From contig NZ_JAVDDV010000004.1 in the NCBI RefSeq assembly GCF_030848565.1, positions 1 to 64,000 of the forward strand: a DNA stretch of 64,000 bases, in the 5' to 3' direction. The stretch comes from Natronolimnohabitans sp. A-GB9. GTDB lineage: Archaea; Halobacteriota; Halobacteria; Halobacteriales; Natrialbaceae. Made by a program: the position numbers and the translations under genes. Within the stretch, counting starts at the first letter, position 1, and each line of letters opens with the position of its first letter. This document shows positions 3-39,568 of this stretch, piece after piece. The notes under the pieces were generated by a model. That model did no database searches and had not been told where the DNA came from. It was given only the letters and a program-made list of their open reading frames with translations.

Positions 3-443
3 CAAGAAGAAATCGGCCGACGCGGTGCGTCGATGATTTCGGCCGAGTACGACGTAGATGCGGTGCTCGTCGTCGATGCGGGAGTTGCGACGGACTCCCC
101 CAAGGCATCACCGTCGGTTGGCAACCGAATTACGCTCGGCAGTGGACCGATCGTTGCTCGCGGCGGTGGGACACATCACCGGCTGGTTGCCGCTACCAGA
201 TCCGTTGCGGATGCTACCGACCGATCGATTCAATTCCAGGCGACACCGGACGGAACAGGAACGGATGCGGACGTATTCGCCACCGAACACGGTCCGGTTC
301 CGACTTTACATCTCGGCTTTCCGACGCGTAACCTGCATACAACAGTCGAAGTAGTCGACGCCGATGACGTCGAAGCGACGATCGGGTTACTAACTGATCT
401 CCTTTCGAAGATCGGGGACGCCGGGACGATCGATCGATTGTAG
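3..443 (+). CDS. M42 family metallo-aminopeptidase, C-terminal part (5' truncated by window edge)
   Basis: The frame is open from the first bases and starts inside the protein, so the true start lies before the window. The visible 146 residues begin with QEEIGRRGA, the M42 signature that holds the general-base glutamate and a metal-ligand glutamate. VVDAG supplies a metal-ligand aspartate and GTGTDAD follows the usual substrate-binding stretch. The C-terminal FPTRNLHTTVE contains the last metal-ligand histidine. M42 enzymes are cytosolic, tetrahedral, two-metal aminopeptidases that degrade peptides. The gene is convergent with the radical SAM cluster, with only four bases between the stops. 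A role in trimming the modified peptide of that cluster is possible but is only suggested by position. Confidence 0.85.
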   Translation, partial: QEEIGRRGASMISAEYDVDAVLVVDAGVATDSPKASPSVGNRITLGSGPIVARGGGTHHRLVAATRSVADATDRSIQFQATPDGTGTDADVFATEHGPVPTLHLGFPTRNLHTTVEVVDADDVEATIGLLTDLLSKIGDAGTIDRL

Positions 444-447
444 CACC

Positions 448-1416
448 TCACGAGGAACAGGCACACCGGTTACAGACCGGCAACAGCCCCTCTTTCGACA
501 GCTGTTCGCGGAATTGACTTATTTCTCGTCCCGTCCAGATGTCGGCGAGCCGATCGTCGCGAACATTTCCCATCGGTTGTCGGACGAACGGACAGGGATA
601 GACGTCACCTTCAGGACCGATAAGCGGTCGACGGTAGATCGCTTCACACCCCCGCCGGTGATCGCGCTCTCCGTCGTCGAACCACTCGTCAACGGTGGAC
701 TCGGAAGCGCCTGGCGGAAATACCTGTACGGTTGCCGGTGACTGTTCGGCACGCTCTCGAACGTCCCGCAACCCCTCGTTGACGGCCGCCGTATTCGCCG
801 GATGTTCGGGCAAGACTGGCAACATCATCACCCCTTCATCACAACCCAGTCGCTCGGCCGAACGGGCTACGTCGCTCGGTCGACCCCAGGTCTGAAGCTG
901 AAACCCGACCTTATCGGCGAATGGCTCGACCACCTCGAGAAGGTCCGAAAACCGATCTTCGTTGTACGACGAAACCACACAGTTGAGATAGAATTCGTCC
1001 AGACAGGTACGGTCGATACGTCGCAGGTTTTCGAGGACGCGGTCGAACGTTCCGTTGCCCCTGATGGCGTCGTGTGTCTGTCGTGGCCCGTCTACTGAGA
1101 CGCTGAGCGCGTCTATTGGAAGATCGTTGACTCTCGACGCGGCTTCTGGCGTCGATAATGACGTCAGGAGCCGCAACTCGTCGACGTGTCGAGACACAAT
1201 CTCACAGATCTCGTCGGTGTCCGGTCGAAGAAGGGCTTCACCACCCGTAATCACGAACGATTCGATATCGTACTCCCGTAGATGTGGGAGTAAATTCGTC
1301 TCTATCTCGGCGACCGAAAGTTCATCGAGGCCGCGATTCGTTTCGAGATAGCAATGAGAACACTCCAAGTGACAGCGATTGGTCACCTCGAGCGTAATAT
1401 GGTTCGGTTCGCGCAT
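448..1416 (-). CDS. Radical SAM/SPASM enzyme, second of a pair in a candidate RiPP cluster
   Basis: This is a 322-residue radical SAM protein. The cluster-binding CxxxCxxC lies near residues 15-22 (CHLECSHC), GGEA follows at about 58-61, and the C-terminal quarter has a short SPASM-like cysteine set (CEAIYRR, YPCPF, CNRCACSS) expected to hold an auxiliary Fe-S cluster. The frame is open for 45 more codons upstream, but those codons overlap the preceding gene. The ATG chosen lies two bases after that gene's TAA, which implies translational coupling. Family knowledge: SPASM enzymes modify peptides or small proteins. The substrate is inferred to be the 35-residue peptide encoded first in this cluster. 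The exact reaction cannot be read from the sequence. Confidence 0.85.
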   Translation of the reverse strand: MREPNHITLEVTNRCHLECSHCYLETNRGLDELSVAEIETNLLPHLREYDIESFVITGGEALLRPDTDEICEIVSRHVDELRLLTSLSTPEAASRVNDLPIDALSVSVDGPRQTHDAIRGNGTFDRVLENLRRIDRTCLDEFYLNCVVSSYNEDRFSDLLEVVEPFADKVGFQLQTWGRPSDVARSAERLGCDEGVMMLPVLPEHPANTAAVNEGLRDVRERAEQSPATVQVFPPGASESTVDEWFDDGERDHRRGCEAIYRRPLIGPEGDVYPCPFVRQPMGNVRDDRLADIWTGREISQFREQLSKEGLLPVCNRCACSS

Positions 1417-1418
1417 GA

Positions 1419-2783
1419 TTAGAGCGGCGTCGGTTTCGTTTCGGTTCGCTCTTCGACCATCGGAAGAATTTCGTCGACGAAATATTGCATATTCTGGCAG
1501 AATCGTGGATCGCGTCCGGCCAGGGTATCGTCGACGTTCCAGGACCACCATCGACAGCCGCCGCCACAGTACTCCAGGGCGTCACACGTCCGGCAGTCCT
1601 CCGGAATTACTTCGGAAACTGTCGTCTGTTTGAACTCTCGCATGGTATCACCAGTCCAGACGTCCTCGAGTTGTTCATCGGTTACGTCCCCACACTCGTA
1701 GTCGTGAAGGAGCGTACACGGCGTCACAGTGCCGTCCGGTTTCACACAGCAACTTCGTTCGTTGTACCGGCAGATGATCGAGTCCGGTTCGTACTTCGAG
1801 TAGCCGAACTCGAACACCTCTTCTTTGAAGATCCCCTCGATATTGATTCTCATGTCGGTCTCCGTTTCGAGGTGTTTCTCGACGATCTCTCTACTGACGG
1901 ACTGGTACTCGTCGAGGTCGATATCGAAGTGTCCCTCCTCAGTGGTGTCGGGTTCGACCTGTGCAAGTCCGACTCGCCACCGTTTCACTCCGAGATCCAT
2001 CAGGTACTCGTACATCTCGGGCAGTTCCTCGAGGTTTACCGTCGTAGCGACGCTACAGACGTGTGCTTCGATGTCCGAGTCAGCGACCCGTTCGAGTCCG
2101 CGCTTGCAGGCTTCGTTCGTACCTTGGCCTCTGATTTCGTCGTCGGAATCGGGGGTGAGGCCGTTGAGCGATACGACGATGTTCGGCGAACTCCGAAGCG
2201 ACCGGATTTTTTCGATCGTTTCTTCGGTAATCAACATCCCATTCGTCAGGATGTCTTGAACGCGAATGTACCGTTGTTCGATCAGATCGATAATCTCGAA
2301 GAGGTCCGGTCTCGTCAATGGTTCGCCACCGGAGACGATGACCGACTCGACGTTCATCCAGTACAACTCGTTTACGATCCGTCTGATCTGGTCTATCGAC
2401 AGCCCCTCGCCCTGGTGGAGGTACGGCTCCTGATAGCAGTGCGTACAGGCGATGTTGCAGCCCTCGGTAACGTCGAGATGGGCCAATTTGAGACGGGGTT
2501 CGTCGACTGGTGGCGGGACCTCTTGGGGCACAGCCTCACTCTCTTCAAGGACGTTTTCTCTCCGGAGGAACTCGAGAAACTCTCTAACGTGGTCTCGGCT
2601 TTCGCGGTCGAATCCGTCTAACACCGAATCGACGGGTGTGCCTAACTGGAGCTGTCGTAACACCTCGTATTGGCTCTGCGTAAGTTGTTTCGTCTCTTCC
2701 TCGTCGAAGTGGAAGAGGACGAACTCGTCGCCGCCGGCCTTCAGGAAGTATTCGTCCGTGAGTTGGAGGTGTGTCTGGGTCAT
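1419..2783 (-). CDS. Radical SAM/SPASM peptide-modifying enzyme with N-terminal PqqD-like recognition domain
   Basis: This 454-residue protein has three parts. Residues 1-80 resemble a PqqD-like winged-helix RiPP recognition element (LTDEYFLKAGGDEFVLFHF followed by a helical LTQSQYEVLRQL segment). Residues 100-300 form the radical SAM barrel with CNIACTHC at 109-116 and GGEP at 152-155. The C-terminus is a full SPASM domain with many cysteines, ending in CRTCDALEYCGGGCRWW. This architecture matches PqqE/MftC-like peptide-modifying enzymes, with the leader-binding domain fused. A 35-residue peptide gene lies 55 bases upstream on the same strand and a second radical SAM gene follows after two bases. 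The peptide is the most likely substrate. The product is unknown. Confidence 0.9.
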   Translation of the reverse strand: MTQTHLQLTDEYFLKAGGDEFVLFHFDEEETKQLTQSQYEVLRQLQLGTPVDSVLDGFDRESRDHVREFLEFLRRENVLEESEAVPQEVPPPVDEPRLKLAHLDVTEGCNIACTHCYQEPYLHQGEGLSIDQIRRIVNELYWMNVESVIVSGGEPLTRPDLFEIIDLIEQRYIRVQDILTNGMLITEETIEKIRSLRSSPNIVVSLNGLTPDSDDEIRGQGTNEACKRGLERVADSDIEAHVCSVATTVNLEELPEMYEYLMDLGVKRWRVGLAQVEPDTTEEGHFDIDLDEYQSVSREIVEKHLETETDMRINIEGIFKEEVFEFGYSKYEPDSIICRYNERSCCVKPDGTVTPCTLLHDYECGDVTDEQLEDVWTGDTMREFKQTTVSEVIPEDCRTCDALEYCGGGCRWWSWNVDDTLAGRDPRFCQNMQYFVDEILPMVEERTETKPTPL

Positions 2784-2838
2784 TGGATCGAAATAATAGG
2801 GTGTACAGTTGGCTATCGGTACGGTCGGGAATCGATCC

Positions 2839-2946
2839 TTAGTAGAATGTCACCGGAAGTTTCGCCTGATGGTCCGCAGCCTCTTTTTTGGCTTCGCTGA
2901 ACGACTCGTCCACGAACTCGGTTTCGCTCGCATCGAACCCTGACAT
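2839..2946 (-). CDS. Candidate RiPP precursor peptide (35 aa)
   Basis: An ATG at 2946 opens a 35-residue frame that ends with TAA at 2839. The first 29 residues are acidic and helical in character (FDASETEFVDESFSEAKKE), as expected of a leader. The tail is KLPVTFY, ending in two aromatic residues. The gene lies directly upstream of, and on the same strand as, two radical SAM/SPASM genes, the first of which carries a PqqD-like recognition domain. This is the layout of PqqA-PqqD-PqqE and MftA-MftB-MftC systems. No cysteine is present, so sactipeptide thioether chemistry is excluded. A modification on the aromatic C-terminus is an inference. Assignment rests on size, position and composition, not on a database match. 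Confidence 0.7.
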   Translation of the reverse strand: MSGFDASETEFVDESFSEAKKEAADHQAKLPVTFY

Positions 2947-3153
2947 GGGCAAGCGAATATAGCAGGCAATAGGAATTGGTTATTTCTGAAAATAATCCAC
3001 CGTTTTATTTACGTCCCCTCAGAGGGTTGTATTCACTCGTTGGAGACGAGTGCGTTCAGCGGGGATCGTCCGATACTCGCTCGGCCACTGATGACGAAAA
3101 CTGGGTGACCACCCGACTCGGCTACGGAGACGGGGCCGAGACGGAACCGACGA

Positions 3154-3813
3154 TTACGTATCCACCGGATACAGGGAGTCGAACAGGTTTCCGAGTGCGG
3201 CGACGAGGTGTTTGTGGACCGTACTCGTGGCGATATCGAGCGCGTCGGCGATCTCCTCGGCGGTCGTCTCACGCGGATACGAGAAGTACCCCATCCGGTG
3301 CGCAGTTCGAAGGACTTCCCGCTGTCGTTCGGTCAAGCGGTTCATATCGATAGTGTTGTACGAGGTCTCCTCACCGACCGTTGTATCGGCAGTGAGCTGA
3401 ACGAGCTGGACCGATTCTGCACACTTTCGAAGTCTCGCCAAAACTGTTCGCAATTCGTCGCGCGAGGACGGATAGACGGTATAGTACAGACCATCCTCAT
3501 CGATATCGACGCATTCGATCGGTATTCCGGAACATTCGACGGTTCGACAGATACAGTCGTTCGTGTCGGTTTCTACCCGATAGATGGTCGTCGCGCCGTC
3601 CGTGAACTCGGAACTGATCGCATCGTGTTCGGTCGGGATGTCGCGTTTCGACGCGAGCAGATCTATTCGCTTCCCGGCGTGATCGATCGTTCGCGAAAGC
3701 AACTGAACGTGGTCAGTATCGACTTCGAGTGATGTGAGCGGGCAACCGGACGGGGCGCGTACTTTGATTCGTGCTCGGAGTTGCGAACACATGCTATGAC
3801 GTGTCTCCCCCAT
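3154..3813 (-). CDS. HTH_10 (Bat-like) transcriptional regulator
   Basis: This is a 219-residue protein with a C-terminal HTH_10 domain (LTERQREVLRTAHRMGYFSY, then EEIADALDIATSTVHKHL), the DNA-binding module of bacterio-opsin-activator-type haloarchaeal regulators. The N-terminal 140 residues form the usual family sensor domain and carry several cysteines (GCPL, CICRTVEC, RKCAES), which could sense redox or metal. An alternative start at 3792 would remove seven residues. It is followed on the same strand by the 35-residue peptide and two radical SAM genes after a 207-base gap. It is therefore the probable local regulator of that cluster. The gap is AT-rich near 2975-3015 and probably holds the peptide promoter. 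Confidence 0.85.
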   Translation of the reverse strand: MGETRHSMCSQLRARIKVRAPSGCPLTSLEVDTDHVQLLSRTIDHAGKRIDLLASKRDIPTEHDAISSEFTDGATTIYRVETDTNDCICRTVECSGIPIECVDIDEDGLYYTVYPSSRDELRTVLARLRKCAESVQLVQLTADTTVGEETSYNTIDMNRLTERQREVLRTAHRMGYFSYPRETTAEEIADALDIATSTVHKHLVAALGNLFDSLYPVDT

Positions 3814-4147
3814 GATCGATTGTCGAACTGTAACCAGGAAATGTAATCAGCCCTATATCTTGCGTGCACATACACCGTATTAGCAAATAAGCATTTCTAT
3901 TGGTAGGAAATGTGTCACATACAGGTGCGTCTCGAACCTGAATACGTGTTTCAGCGACTCAAGCGGCGGACGACTTCGGTATCGATCTACGACCGATGCA
4001 GCGGACTCGGCGCAGCCGACCGTGTCGGTCCGCTCGAGGTGTTCAGCGGCGATTTGTGTTTGGCTGAAAACACCCGTCTTATGCGTGTGTCCGTTCGATC
4101 AGTGCACGACCACATTCCATTTATCCCCGGAGTGATAACAGACATAC
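3814..4147. promoter_or_regulatory. Divergent intergenic region between HTH regulator and ileS
   Basis: No credible gene is seen in these 334 bases. On the minus side, an AT-rich patch at about 3852-3890 could serve the HTH regulator. On the plus side, ATTTATCC at about 4117-4124 and GGAGTGA just after it precede the ileS start and may act as TATA-like element and ribosome binding site. Confidence 0.4.
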
Positions 4148-7100
4148 ATGTACTCACTCGACGATATTGGCGACCAGTACGACGCCCACGAGTTAGAGCA
4201 GCGGGTGTTCGAGTATTGGGACGACGTCGACGCCTACGAGCAAACGGTCGAGCACCGATCCGACGGTGAATCGTTCTTCTTCGTCGACGGACCGCCGTAC
4301 ACGTCGGGATCGGCCCACATGGGGACGACCTGGAACAAGACGCTGAAAGACGTCTATCTCCGCTTCTGGCGGATGCAGGGATACGACGTCACCGACCGCC
4401 CGGGCTACGACATGCACGGGCTCCCGATCGAGACCCGGGTCGAGGAGAAACTCGGCTTCGAGAACAAACAGGACATCGAGGAGTTCGGCGAGGAGAACTT
4501 CGTCGAGGCCTGCAAAGAGTACGCCGAGGAGCAACTCGAGGGGCTGCAGGAGGACTTCCAGGATTTCGGCGTCTGGATGGACTGGTCGGATCCCTACAAG
4601 ACCCTCTCACCGGAGTACATGGAGGCCGCCTGGTGGGGGTTTTCGAAGGCCGCCGAGCGCGGCCTCGTCGAGAAGGGCCACCGCTCGATCTCGCAGTGTC
4701 CGCGGTGTGAGACGGCGATCGCGAACAACGAGGTCGAGTACGAGGACGTCGAGGATCACTCTGTCTACGTCAAATTCGACCTGGAGGACCGAGATGGAAA
4801 GATCGTCATCTGGACGACTACCCCGTGGACGATCCCGGCGAACACCTTCGTTGCCGTCGACGAGGACGGCGATTACGTCGGCGTTCGCGCCCAGAAGAAC
4901 GGCGAAGAAGAGCTACTCTACCTCGCCGAGGCCAAACACGAGGAAGTGCTGCGCGAGGGTCGCTACGAGGAGTACGAGATCGTCGAGGAATTCACCGGCG
5001 AAGACCTGATCGGCTGGTCCTACGAGCACCCGCTGGCCGAAGAAGTCCCCGACCACGTCGACGCAGAGGGCACGCACGAGATCTACGCCGCCGACTACGT
5101 CGACACGGGCGGCGACGGGACCGGCCTCGTCCACTCCGCACCGGGCCATGGTGAGGAGGACTTCGAGCGCGGGCGCGAACTCGGCTTCTCGATCTTCTGT
5201 CCCGTCGACGGCGATGGCGTCTACACCGACGAGGCCGGCAAGTACGCGGGGGAGTTCGTCAAAGACGCCGACGACGAGATCATCGCGGACTTAGACGACA
5301 ACGGTGCCTTACTCGCCTCGGGTACCGTCCAGCACAGCTACGGCCACTGCTGGCGCTGCGACACGGGCATTCTCCAGATCGTCACCGACCAATGGTTCAT
5401 CACGACGGCGGAGATCAAGAACGAGCTACTGGCGAACATCGCGGACAGCGAGTGGGCCCCCGACTGGGCCCGCGATAATCGCTTCCGGGACTTCGTCGAG
5501 GAAGCGCCGGACTGGAACGTCTCGCGACAGCGCTACTGGGGGACACCATTACCGGTCTGGACCCCTGAGAACCGCGACGACGGGACGGGTACCGCCGCCA
5601 GTACAGAGCGCGCCAGCGGGCGCGCGAACGAGGACATGATCGTCATCAGCGACCGCGAGGAACTCGCCGAGCGGGTCGACCAGGACGTCGATCCCGAGAC
5701 CGTCGACCTCCACAAGAACACGGTCGATGAGTTGACGATCACCGAGGACGGCACCACCTACACCCGCGTCCCCGACGTCTTCGACGTTTGGCTCGACGCG
5801 GCGGTCGCATCGTGGGGCACACTGAACTACCCCGAAGACGACAGCCAGTTCGACGAACTCTGGCCCGCCGACTTCATCCTCGAGGCCCACGACCAGACCC
5901 GTGGCTGGTTCTGGTCCCAGCTCGGGATGGGAACCGCCGCTATCGGCGAGATCCCCTACGAAGAGGTCCTGATGCACGGCCACGCGCTGATGCCCGACGG
6001 CCGCGCGATGTCCAAGTCCAAGGACATCCTCATCGATCCCCACGAGGCCATCGACCGCCACGGCCGAGACGTCATGCGCATGTTCCTGTTATCGAACAAC
6101 CCGCAGGGCGAGGACATGCGCTTTGACTGGGACGGGATGCAGACGATGGAGAACCACCTCCGCACCCTGTGGAACGTCTTCCGGTTCCCGCTGCCGTACA
6201 TGCGCTTAGACGGCTTCGATCCCCAGGAAACTACCTTAGCAGAGGTCGACGACGATCTCGAGTTGATCGACGAGTGGGTGCTCGCCCGCCTGCAGTCGAC
6301 GAAAGCCGAGATGACCGACCACTTCGAGGATCGGCGCCAGGACAAGGCTCTGGACGCGCTCGTCGACTTCGTCGTCGAAGACGTCTCCCGCTTCTACGTC
6401 CAGGCCGTCCGCGAGCGTATGTGGGAGGAAGAGGACAGCGCCTCCAAGACGGCCGCCTACGCGACGATCTACCGCGTGCTGCGGGAGACGGTCGCCCTGC
6501 TCGCCCCTTACGCGCCGTTTATCTCCGAGGAGATCTACGGCACCCTCACGGGCGACGCCGAGCACGCCACCGTCCACATGTGTGACTGGCCGACGGTCGA
6601 GGAGTTCTGGGTCGACGAACAACTCGAGGACGACGTCGCCTTCCTGCGGGCGATCGAGGAAGCAGGCGCGAACGCCCGCCAGCAGGCCGGCCGCAAACTT
6701 CGCTGGCCCGTCCCGCGGGTCGTCGTCGCCGCCGACGACGACCGCGTCGCCGAAGCCGTTTCCCGTCACACCGACCTGCTCGCCGACCGGCTCAACGCCC
6801 GCGAGATCGAACTCGTCTCGGCCGAAGACCGCTGGGAAGAGCTCCAGTACAGCGCCGAGGCCGATATGAGCGAACTCGGGCCGGCCTTCGGCGGCCGCGC
6901 CGGGCAGGTCATGAACGCACTCAACGAGGCCCGTATCGACGAGCCGAGCCTCGAGGCGCTCGAGGCGGCCGTCGCCGACCACCTCGAAGACGACGAGTCC
7001 CTCGAGGAGTCGATGGTGTCGTTCGTCACGGAGACCCCCGACGACATCGCGGGGACCGCGTTCGGCCTGAACGGCGACGACCGCGGCGTCGCCTACGTCG

Positions 7101-7405
7101 ACGCGTCGCTGACCGAGGACATCGAAAGCGAGGGCTACGCCCGCGAGGTCATTCGCCGCGTCCAGGAGATGCGCAAGGATCTCGACTTAGACGTCGAGGA
7201 ACGCATCGCACTCGAGATCGAGATCGACGACGACCGCGTCGCCGACCTCGTCGCCGAACGCGAGGACCTGATCCGTGAGGAGGTCCGTGCCGACGAGATC
7301 GGTTCCCTCGAGGTCGATGACGGCGAGCGAAAGGAGTGGGAGGTCGAAAACGTGACGATGGAGATCGCACTCGAGCCGCTGGCGGCCGCGGAAGCGTCGG
7401 ACTAA
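4148..7405 (+). CDS. ileS: Isoleucyl-tRNA synthetase
   Basis: This 1085-residue class I aminoacyl-tRNA synthetase charges tRNA-Ile in the cytosol. The HIGH motif is HMGT at residues 57-60 in the context DGPPYTSGSAHMGT. The KMSKS loop is AMSKSKD at about 620-625. The WCRCDTGI-type zinc-knuckle region, the editing insertion with TTPWTIPAN and the long C-terminal anticodon-binding region are all present, and the length is normal for an archaeal IleRS. The protein is rich in glutamate and aspartate, as expected for a salt-in archaeon. It stands alone, and the next plus-strand gene is more than 300 bases downstream. The start MYSLDDIGDQYDAHELEQRV matches the family's N-terminus. Confidence 0.97.
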   Translation: MYSLDDIGDQYDAHELEQRVFEYWDDVDAYEQTVEHRSDGESFFFVDGPPYTSGSAHMGTTWNKTLKDVYLRFWRMQGYDVTDRPGYDMHGLPIETRVEEKLGFENKQDIEEFGEENFVEACKEYAEEQLEGLQEDFQDFGVWMDWSDPYKTLSPEYMEAAWWGFSKAAERGLVEKGHRSISQCPRCETAIANNEVEYEDVEDHSVYVKFDLEDRDGKIVIWTTTPWTIPANTFVAVDEDGDYVGVRAQKNGEEELLYLAEAKHEEVLREGRYEEYEIVEEFTGEDLIGWSYEHPLAEEVPDHVDAEGTHEIYAADYVDTGGDGTGLVHSAPGHGEEDFERGRELGFSIFCPVDGDGVYTDEAGKYAGEFVKDADDEIIADLDDNGALLASGTVQHSYGHCWRCDTGILQIVTDQWFITTAEIKNELLANIADSEWAPDWARDNRFRDFVEEAPDWNVSRQRYWGTPLPVWTPENRDDGTGTAASTERASGRANEDMIVISDREELAERVDQDVDPETVDLHKNTVDELTITEDGTTYTRVPDVFDVWLDAAVASWGTLNYPEDDSQFDELWPADFILEAHDQTRGWFWSQLGMGTAAIGEIPYEEVLMHGHALMPDGRAMSKSKDILIDPHEAIDRHGRDVMRMFLLSNNPQGEDMRFDWDGMQTMENHLRTLWNVFRFPLPYMRLDGFDPQETTLAEVDDDLELIDEWVLARLQSTKAEMTDHFEDRRQDKALDALVDFVVEDVSRFYVQAVRERMWEEEDSASKTAAYATIYRVLRETVALLAPYAPFISEEIYGTLTGDAEHATVHMCDWPTVEEFWVDEQLEDDVAFLRAIEEAGANARQQAGRKLRWPVPRVVVAADDDRVAEAVSRHTDLLADRLNAREIELVSAEDRWEELQYSAEADMSELGPAFGGRAGQVMNALNEARIDEPSLEALEAAVADHLEDDESLEESMVSFVTETPDDIAGTAFGLNGDDRGVAYVDASLTEDIESEGYAREVIRRVQEMRKDLDLDVEERIALEIEIDDDRVADLVAEREDLIREEVRADEIGSLEVDDGERKEWEVENVTMEIALEPLAAAEASD

Positions 7406-27519: not shown

Positions 27520-27603
27520 CATACGGTCTCCTGTCGTCAATTACCGCCGATCGCCAGGATGGGGTCGGCGATCGGCGGTACATCGGTACAGCAGTCCGTA
27601 TCA
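27520..27603. repeat. Palindromic intergenic element, copy 3 (ATACGG tips)
   Basis: The left tip is CATACGGTCTCCTGTC and the right tip reads TGATACGGACTGCTGT on the minus strand, where TGA is the stop of the GalT-like gene. The centre is a strong hairpin, ACCGCCGATCGCC (27543) with GGCGATCGGCGGT (27567). The core differs from copies 1 and 2, so the tips are the conserved part. Confidence 0.75.
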
Positions 27604-28602
27604 GAAGAACTCGGCAGCCTCCGAGGCGTACGCTTCGGGTGCAACGTCGACGACGCGTTCGTCGTGGAGCGTCTGAAGGAAGAACGCGTCCGAGACGTAG
27701 TGGTCGTCGAACGGCGATCGAGCGACGACGTCGACGACGACGGGCGAAGCGTCTCCCTCGTTCAGGTGTATCGAGAAGTTGTGGGCGTTGAGCCCGAGCG
27801 AGCCGTAGTAGGACAGCACGTTCTCGAGGCCGGCCGCGAGGTCGGCGACCACGTCGTCGTTGGGTGCAGGTCGATCGGTCACGTCGGTAATGCCCACGAC
27901 GTGGTAGTGGTGGGTCGGCGCGAACGGGGCGAGCCACTCGACGTCGCCGGTTGCGCCGACGTGTCGTGGCCCGTCCCGTTCCTCCTCGAGCAGGGCTTCC
28001 CAGTAGGTGCTGTCGTGGTCGTCGGCGAACGCACGCTCGGCGTCGACGCGGCGTCTGGCCGCGTTCGTGCCGTGGTCGTCGAGGATCGTCTGGAGGTGTG
28101 GGTGGACGACGCTGCTTCCCGAGGAGGGGAGCAAGTTCATGTTGATCGAGGCGTAGGGGGGGTCCTCGTGGTCCGTGACCGCGTGGACGTACTCGAGGGC
28201 GTTCTCGAGGCCATCGGCGAGCAGGTCAGCGGAGAACTCGTCGTTTGGCACGAAGTGGTCCTCGGTGAGAACGACGACGTTTGCGTGTTTGGCGTACGGA
28301 AACAGGTTCGGAAACGAAACTGATTCGCCGACGGTTCCGCGATCGACCTCGACGAAGTCGGGGTACTCTGGCGTCGCGTCGTGGACCATCTCCGGACAGA
28401 AGAAACAGTCTCCGTCGTCGTCGACGAACGACGAGATATCCGGTCGCTCGTCGGGATGAGGGAACACGTCCTCGACGAGACGGGTCTGCTGTCCGGTCAG
28501 CGGATCCTCACGCAGTTCGACCTCGACAGTGTCTTCCTCGAAGTCGGCCATCGGACTGTAGAAGCGCGCCCGGTCAGTGTGTGCGGTGAACTCGATGGAC
28601 AT
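27601..28602 (-). CDS. GalT/HIT-superfamily nucleotidyltransferase-like protein
   Basis: This 333-residue cytosolic protein resembles galactose-1-phosphate uridylyltransferase. CFFCPEM near residue 68 is a zinc-type knuckle, and SSGSSVVHPHLQTILD contains the HPHxQ active-site motif whose first histidine is nucleotidylated in GalT. THHYHVVG near residue 235 gives further histidines. The C-terminal half has the second HIT-like fold. The frame is open far upstream of the ATG at 28602, but the MSIEFTAHTDRARFY start fits the family. The true sugar substrate is not known, and haloarchaeal members may act on other sugar phosphates. Confidence 0.75.
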   Translation of the reverse strand: MSIEFTAHTDRARFYSPMADFEEDTVEVELREDPLTGQQTRLVEDVFPHPDERPDISSFVDDDGDCFFCPEMVHDATPEYPDFVEVDRGTVGESVSFPNLFPYAKHANVVVLTEDHFVPNDEFSADLLADGLENALEYVHAVTDHEDPPYASINMNLLPSSGSSVVHPHLQTILDDHGTNAARRRVDAERAFADDHDSTYWEALLEEERDGPRHVGATGDVEWLAPFAPTHHYHVVGITDVTDRPAPNDDVVADLAAGLENVLSYYGSLGLNAHNFSIHLNEGDASPVVVDVVARSPFDDHYVSDAFFLQTLHDERVVDVAPEAYASEAAEFF

Positions 28603-39466: not shown

Positions 39467-39568
39467 AACCGTTTCAGTTGGTACTATAGTAGCCACTGCA
39501 AGTCATTGCACACCTGATCGCCAGACGGATCAGCGATCAGTGTGTAAACCGTTGCAGTTGTTACTATA
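39467..39568. repeat. Direct repeats flanking a hairpin (AACCGTTxCAGTTG family)
   Basis: AACCGTTTCAGTTGGTACTA (39467) and AACCGTTGCAGTTGTTACTA (39547) match at 18 of 20 bases, and TA follows both. Between them CTGATCGC (39514) pairs with GCGATCAG (39533), and the arms CACTGCAA and TTGCAGTTG extend the dyad. It is probably a palindromic intergenic element. Confidence 0.55.

Follow-up and report, generated by a model that had tools for sequence, protein, structure and literature searches.

The locus and its genes

The DNA considered here, called the window, is a stretch of 64,000 nucleotides from Natronolimnohabitans sp. A-GB9 (contig NZ_JAVDDV010000004.1, positions 1 to 64,000). At its very beginning lies a cassette of five genes, in which a short peptide gene stands between a regulator gene and the genes for two radical S-adenosylmethionine (SAM) enzymes, an arrangement which suggests a pathway for a ribosomally synthesized and post-translationally modified peptide (RiPP). 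A preliminary description had listed the regulator, the 35-codon gene and the two enzymes, with enzyme 2 two bases past enzyme 1. All four genes are present on the minus strand in the place given there, and two untranslated bases separate the enzyme genes. What had been overlooked is the fifth gene, which codes for an M42 aminopeptidase and is convergent with the others, with 4 bases between its stop codon and that of enzyme 2. Nor had it been noticed how rare the cassette is. The features are collected in Table 1.

Table 1. Features of the cassette and its flank in the window
Feature	Position	Strand	Remarks
M42 (TET-type) aminopeptidase, C-terminal part	3..443	+	146 codons and stop; truncated by contig start
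Radical SAM enzyme 2, 322 amino acids	448..1416	-	Pfam Radical_SAM 70 bits, SPASM 48 bits
Radical SAM/SPASM enzyme 1, 454 amino acids	1419..2783	-	Pfam Radical_SAM 82 bits, SPASM 45 bits
Enzyme 1 N-terminal domain, residues 12-80	2544..2750	-	putative RiPP recognition element (PqqD-like); predicted beta-beta-alpha(x4)
Candidate precursor peptide, 35 amino acids, MSGFDASETEFVDESFSEAKKEAADHQAKLPVTFY	2839..2946	-	orthologue 77% identical; acidic leader; C-terminal L-P-x-x-F-Y conserved
TATA-like ATAAAACGG	3000..3008	-	conserved; in both cassettes exactly 62 bases upstream of the peptide start; probable promoter
HTH_10 regulator with N-terminal DmsR_N (DmsR/NarO type)	3154..3813	-	Pfam HTH_10 70 bits, E=1e-19; DmsR_N 70 bits, E=3e-19
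ileS	4148..7405	+	flanking housekeeping gene, one cassette border

The genome of Natrinema ejinorense JCM 13890 carries the one other cassette found, identical in gene order, spacing and peptide length. This is the only other genome with an enzyme 1 orthologue among 391 genomes of the class Halobacteria, and enzyme 2 is confined to the same two genomes. The peptide has convincing matches in only two of 125 genomes of the family, and among these 125 the cassette-type M42 peptidase too is confined to that pair, so that both enzymes, the peptide and the peptidase occur together there. No further orthologue of the cassette enzymes came from 393 genomes sampled across the phylum. A scan of 85,000 species, a search that hinges on two short patterns, again returned N. 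ejinorense as the sole source of an enzyme 1 orthologue. Comparison of the two cassettes by the Nei-Gojobori method shows purifying selection on every cassette gene; the ratios of nonsynonymous to synonymous substitution rates (dN/dS) given below are from this comparison.

The candidate precursor peptide

The N. ejinorense peptide, MSGFENAETEFVDEALSETKKEAADHQAKLPTFFY, is identical to that of the window, MSGFDASETEFVDESFSEAKKEAADHQAKLPVTFY, in 27 of 35 residues including the last two, and the C-terminal ends read LPVTFY and LPTFFY. Both frames are 35 codons long, both begin 163 bp before the start of enzyme 1, and the gap between peptide and enzyme 1 holds no second frame of comparable kind. 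For the peptide gene dN is 0.17 and dS 0.56 (dN/dS about 0.30). The preliminary description proposed to look for the 35-residue frame upstream of homologous enzyme pairs, or else for a different, larger substrate protein beside them; in the only other homologous pair found, that of N. ejinorense, the frame is kept and no such protein stands beside it, so that the reading passes this check. A small precursor gene adjoining its maturase is conserved in a homologous cluster, represented by one independent cassette in another genus. A third peptide-like match (E=0.001, 22 bits) lies within a 446-codon frame of another genome and was treated as chance. A 24-codon antisense frame on the plus strand over the peptide gene is open in N. 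ejinorense too (about 63% identical by eye); conservation of the sense frame probably suffices to explain it.

The peptide was described as free of cysteine, and this holds for both cassettes; tryptophan is also absent from both. Thioether and Lys-Trp products are excluded because the peptide has neither residue: the core Cys of sactipeptides and ranthipeptides and the core Trp of streptide are missing in both peptides.

It might be argued that the enzymes have another target, a protein or a small molecule encoded outside the cassette, and that the 35-residue frame serves as a leader peptide in regulation or as a small partner protein. Maturation of larger proteins is common among SPASM enzymes, and the modification of the peptide in the present case is something we infer. 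The frame has a low dN/dS and a fixed position, as a coding gene would have, and is laid out like a precursor, with leader and tail; the cassette contains no further conserved protein gene, and its dedicated peptidase suits a peptide substrate. Together these observations make a substrate encoded elsewhere improbable.

The two radical SAM enzymes

Enzyme 1 has the radical SAM motif CxxxCxxC at residues 109-116 and all seven SPASM cysteines (338, 356, 397, 400, 406, 410 and 429). In enzyme 2 CxxxCxxC is found at 15-22, and the C-terminus is a shortened, SPASM/twitch-like domain (Cys 257, 275, 315, 318 and 320) which ends in CxxCxC; it has no recognition domain. The radical SAM and SPASM cysteine motifs of both enzymes are intact in the N. 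ejinorense orthologues as well, which are 82% (enzyme 1, dN/dS 0.10) and 70% identical (enzyme 2, dN/dS 0.21).

The N-terminus of enzyme 1 had been described as PqqD-like. An AlphaFold2 model (mean predicted local distance difference test score 76, first 26 residues poor) gives the N-terminal domain as strand-strand-helices, and a Foldseek search with this model placed SuiB first (447 columns), followed by CteB, anSME, PqqE and ChlB, so that the predicted fold and the full-length matches to SuiB and CteB, both with a recognition domain, speak for the claim. The high root mean square deviation in these full-length matches makes the placement of domains in enzyme 1 unreliable. At the level of sequence profiles the similarity is weak: Pfam scans of enzyme 1 for a recognition domain were negative, the PqqD profile PF05402 spans residues 20-79 of the orthologue, and of the orthologue only, at full length with 11.8 bits, well under the cut-off, and alignment of the domain against PqqD and MftB by HHalign, with profiles of two or three sequences only, was not significant. 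We therefore rate the N-terminal domain as a probable RiPP recognition element, short of proven, since the PqqD profile stays below its cut-off and the profile-profile tests were negative.

The closest solved relative of enzyme 1 by sequence is PqqE, and for enzyme 2 the best Foldseek match is SkfB, also a peptide maturase. In a tree which took in MftC, PqqE, TIGR04053 and TIGR04347 proteins neither enzyme falls within a named family, and each forms a long branch; they join each other (82/40), possibly as a long-branch artefact. Distant relatives in GTDB, with about 23-29% identity across the greater part of the core, match the radical SAM/SPASM part alone and none aligns to the N-terminal domain; around a subset of them no equivalent two-enzyme cassette was seen among the long open reading frames listed, a listing outside which short peptides fall. 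On plasmids 295 records match the radical SAM core and 0 cover 80% of enzyme 1, and viral contigs contain no relatives that would point to a viral origin. The top plasmid relative of enzyme 1 comes from an Indioceanicola profundi plasmid, where a cluster at positions 162-4017 of the locus encodes three radical SAM proteins together with a PqqD-family chaperone and is neighboured by TIR and SIR2 genes.

Comparison with known systems

The gene order was originally likened to that of pyrroloquinoline quinone (PQQ) and mycofactocin biosynthesis. The logic does fit, with short peptide, probable recognition domain, SPASM enzyme and peptidase, but tests of membership in the two families came out negative for both, and mft or pqq partner genes are absent from the cassette.

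Mycofactocin (MftA-MftF), which also occurs in some haloarchaea (Haloterrigena turkmenica), shares with the cassette a short acidic peptide with terminal Tyr, an adjacent SPASM radical SAM enzyme and a peptidase which frees the modified C-terminus. MftC removes the carboxyl group of the C-terminal Tyr and links this residue to the one before it (PMC9062424). Its target is a C-terminal Val-Tyr, and according to the same authors who state this, release of the core should in theory need no more than an aminopeptidase (PMC7491314). One could accordingly imagine a divergent mycofactocin pathway in which MftB is fused to MftC, MftA ends in Phe-Tyr for Val-Tyr, and M42 serves for MftE. The acidic leader, the C-terminal Tyr and the logic of release are alike, and among NCBIfam models it is indeed the mycofactocin maturase TIGR03962 that enzyme 1 matches best. 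The score is 120 bits against a cut-off of 265, however, while genuine haloarchaeal MftC proteins score 305-307, and enzyme 1 sits on a branch of its own apart from MftC; no MftC that passes the cut-off occurs in either of the two genomes with the cassette. The probable recognition domain is fused, there is an additional radical SAM enzyme, the M42 peptidase replaces the creatininase-type MftE, and mftD, mftE and mftF are not among the five genes within the cassette borders. The peptide has no NCBIfam match and lacks the IDGxCGVY-type end of MftA; homology to MftA looked plausible by eye (a TExVxES-like leader and the C-terminal Tyr), failed in shuffle tests and was dropped as evidence. A divergent mycofactocin pathway is consequently very improbable.

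The PQQ pathway (PqqA-E, PqqF/G) has the peptide, a PqqD-like domain (probable in enzyme 1), the SPASM enzyme and a dedicated peptidase in common with the cassette, which differs in having no pqqB or pqqC. Enzyme 1 scores 88 bits with the PqqE model TIGR02109, for which the cut-off is 381, and the Glu-x3-Tyr of the PQQ precursor is lacking, Pro31 being the residue 4 before Tyr35.

Maturases with recognition elements such as SuiB of the streptide type, CteB and ChlB have the same order of recognition domain (probable in enzyme 1), radical SAM and SPASM and are the best Foldseek matches; the identity to them is about 17%, the substrate offers neither a Trp as for SuiB nor a Cys as for CteB, and a second enzyme and an M42 peptidase are present. 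Two radical SAM enzymes adjoining one small peptide are also found in ruminococcin C (RumMC1/2). The RumMC enzymes make Cys thioethers (PMC8188230), unlike what the cysteine-free peptide of the cassette would allow.

The aminopeptidase

The full-length M42 protein of N. ejinorense (P0005) has 348 amino acids (Peptidase_M42 E=1e-61), and the part in the window is 74% identical to its residues 207-347 (dN/dS 0.16). H-x-D, D-N-R, E-E, D and H, which we take to be the metal and catalytic motifs of the family, are all present in the N. ejinorense protein. The next best M42 proteins among the 125 family genomes are at most 48% identical, and those of the same genera mostly 43-46%, which argues that the enzyme is a cassette-specific peptidase rather than a conserved neighbour. 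It closely fits the logic of core release in MftC-type systems, because digestion from the N-terminus would stop at a modified end.

The regulator and the probable promoter

The regulator resembles DmsR and NarO, activators of anaerobic respiration in haloarchaea (PMC11218638), through its DmsR_N and HTH_10 domains, and DmsR/NarO-like control would suit oxygen-sensitive enzymes. The orthologue in N. ejinorense is 64% identical (dN/dS about 0.22) and begins at Met8, which suggests that the true start of the regulator in the window is likely also Met8, at 3792. The TATA-like element is probably the promoter of an operon comprising the peptide and the enzymes.

A model for the pathway

The reading as a peptide-modification pathway, first proposed from the gene order, is well supported, and the locus is very probably a dedicated peptide-modifying cassette. 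It is best read as a previously undescribed variant of a radical SAM RiPP pathway, neither mycofactocin nor PQQ by the defining features tested, which may work like them. The model proposes that the DmsR-like regulator probably activates an operon beginning with the peptide, and that the N-terminal domain of enzyme 1 would bind the acidic leader. Enzyme 1, expected to carry two auxiliary iron-sulfur clusters besides a single radical SAM cluster, and enzyme 2, whose auxiliary domain is shortened, would in turn modify the conserved L-P-x-x-F-Y end. The chemistry would most likely be oxidative decarboxylation and/or a carbon-carbon or ether cross-link at Phe34-Tyr35. The M42 aminopeptidase would then trim the peptide from the N-terminus until halted by the modified end, and a small aromatic product would be released and probably retained in the cell, where it may serve as a redox cofactor or an internal signal. 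For this full model, with C-terminal modification and release by an aminopeptidase, our confidence is moderate, leaning slightly in its favour.

Several points weigh against this model. The chief one is that there are no more than two known cassettes, too few for a fine division of the conserved residues into leader and core. At the sequence level the support for the recognition domain is weak. The similarity of the peptide to MftA was no better than that of shuffles in five of six comparisons (30-95%), and one reached 2.7%. General peptide turnover is another job of M42 peptidases.

An alternative is a RiPP pathway which yields a longer modified peptide, kept in the cell or secreted by general export, to act as a signal or as a halocin-like antimicrobial; the M42 peptidase would only clear the leader or protect the cell by degrading the peptide. 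Accessory traits typically show what is seen in this case, namely patchy presence, G+C below that of the flanks in both genomes and a site left empty in relatives, and radical SAM RiPP clusters of the ranthipeptide/sactipeptide kind are reported widely in archaea (PMC12144867). The cassette, on the other hand, contains no transporter or exporter, no immunity gene and no secretion signal, the thioether and Lys-Trp bridges are ruled out by the residues lacking in the peptide, and the strongest conservation of the peptide reaches its last two residues. A longer product thus appears rather unlikely.

The small aromatic product of the favoured model could be taken a step further. The cassette might make a third peptide-derived redox cofactor beside PQQ and mycofactocin, formed from the C-terminal Phe-Tyr by two radical SAM enzymes, released by a TET-type aminopeptidase and used by an unrecognised haloarchaeal oxidoreductase; we regard this as a doubtful, speculative extension. 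Should the product prove to be a cofactor, it would add to the few redox cofactors known to be made ribosomally, and would show how an aminopeptidase can take over the task of MftE or of the PQQ peptidases. Almost nothing is known of the products of archaeal radical SAM RiPP clusters, and a survey of archaeal RiPPs from 2025 describes characterisation as still limited and names only two haloarchaeal lanthipeptides (PMC12144867). The cassette is minimal and sharply bounded, with a 35-residue substrate, two enzymes and their own peptidase, and is small enough to be rebuilt in vitro or in Haloferax.

The ileS site

The window holds the ileS border of the cassette, the other border being beyond the contig end. 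In N. ejinorense, where ileS also adjoins the cassette, the five genes exactly occupy the gap between ileS and udg with nothing else in it; udg is presumably a uracil-DNA glycosylase gene, a name given by reading its sequence, with no profile search behind it. In one genome that shares 98.8% identity with N. ejinorense at the start of ileS the flanking genes are 79 bp apart and the gap is empty, and other Natrinema genomes and the congener of the window are also without the cassette at this site. The G+C content of the cassette is lower than that of its flanks in both genomes, about 56% (448-3813) against 63.5% (4148-64000) in the window and 62% against 67% in N. ejinorense. No transposase, integrase or tRNA gene was seen within the cassette, and tRNA-linked integration was rejected as there is no tRNA at the site.

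The assembly contains a second, partial ileS on contig C41 (5691-7577), its DNA 84% identical to ileS of the window; the contig is short, lower in G+C and closer to Natrinema sequences, and its ileS is either a true second copy or assembly contamination (estimated 3.94%). Two short repeats of 85 bp in the window, 39484-39568 and 27520-27604, which according to ARAGORN are not tRNA genes, are 86-88% identical to a region near ileS in N. ejinorense and to the sequence upstream of ileS on contig C41.

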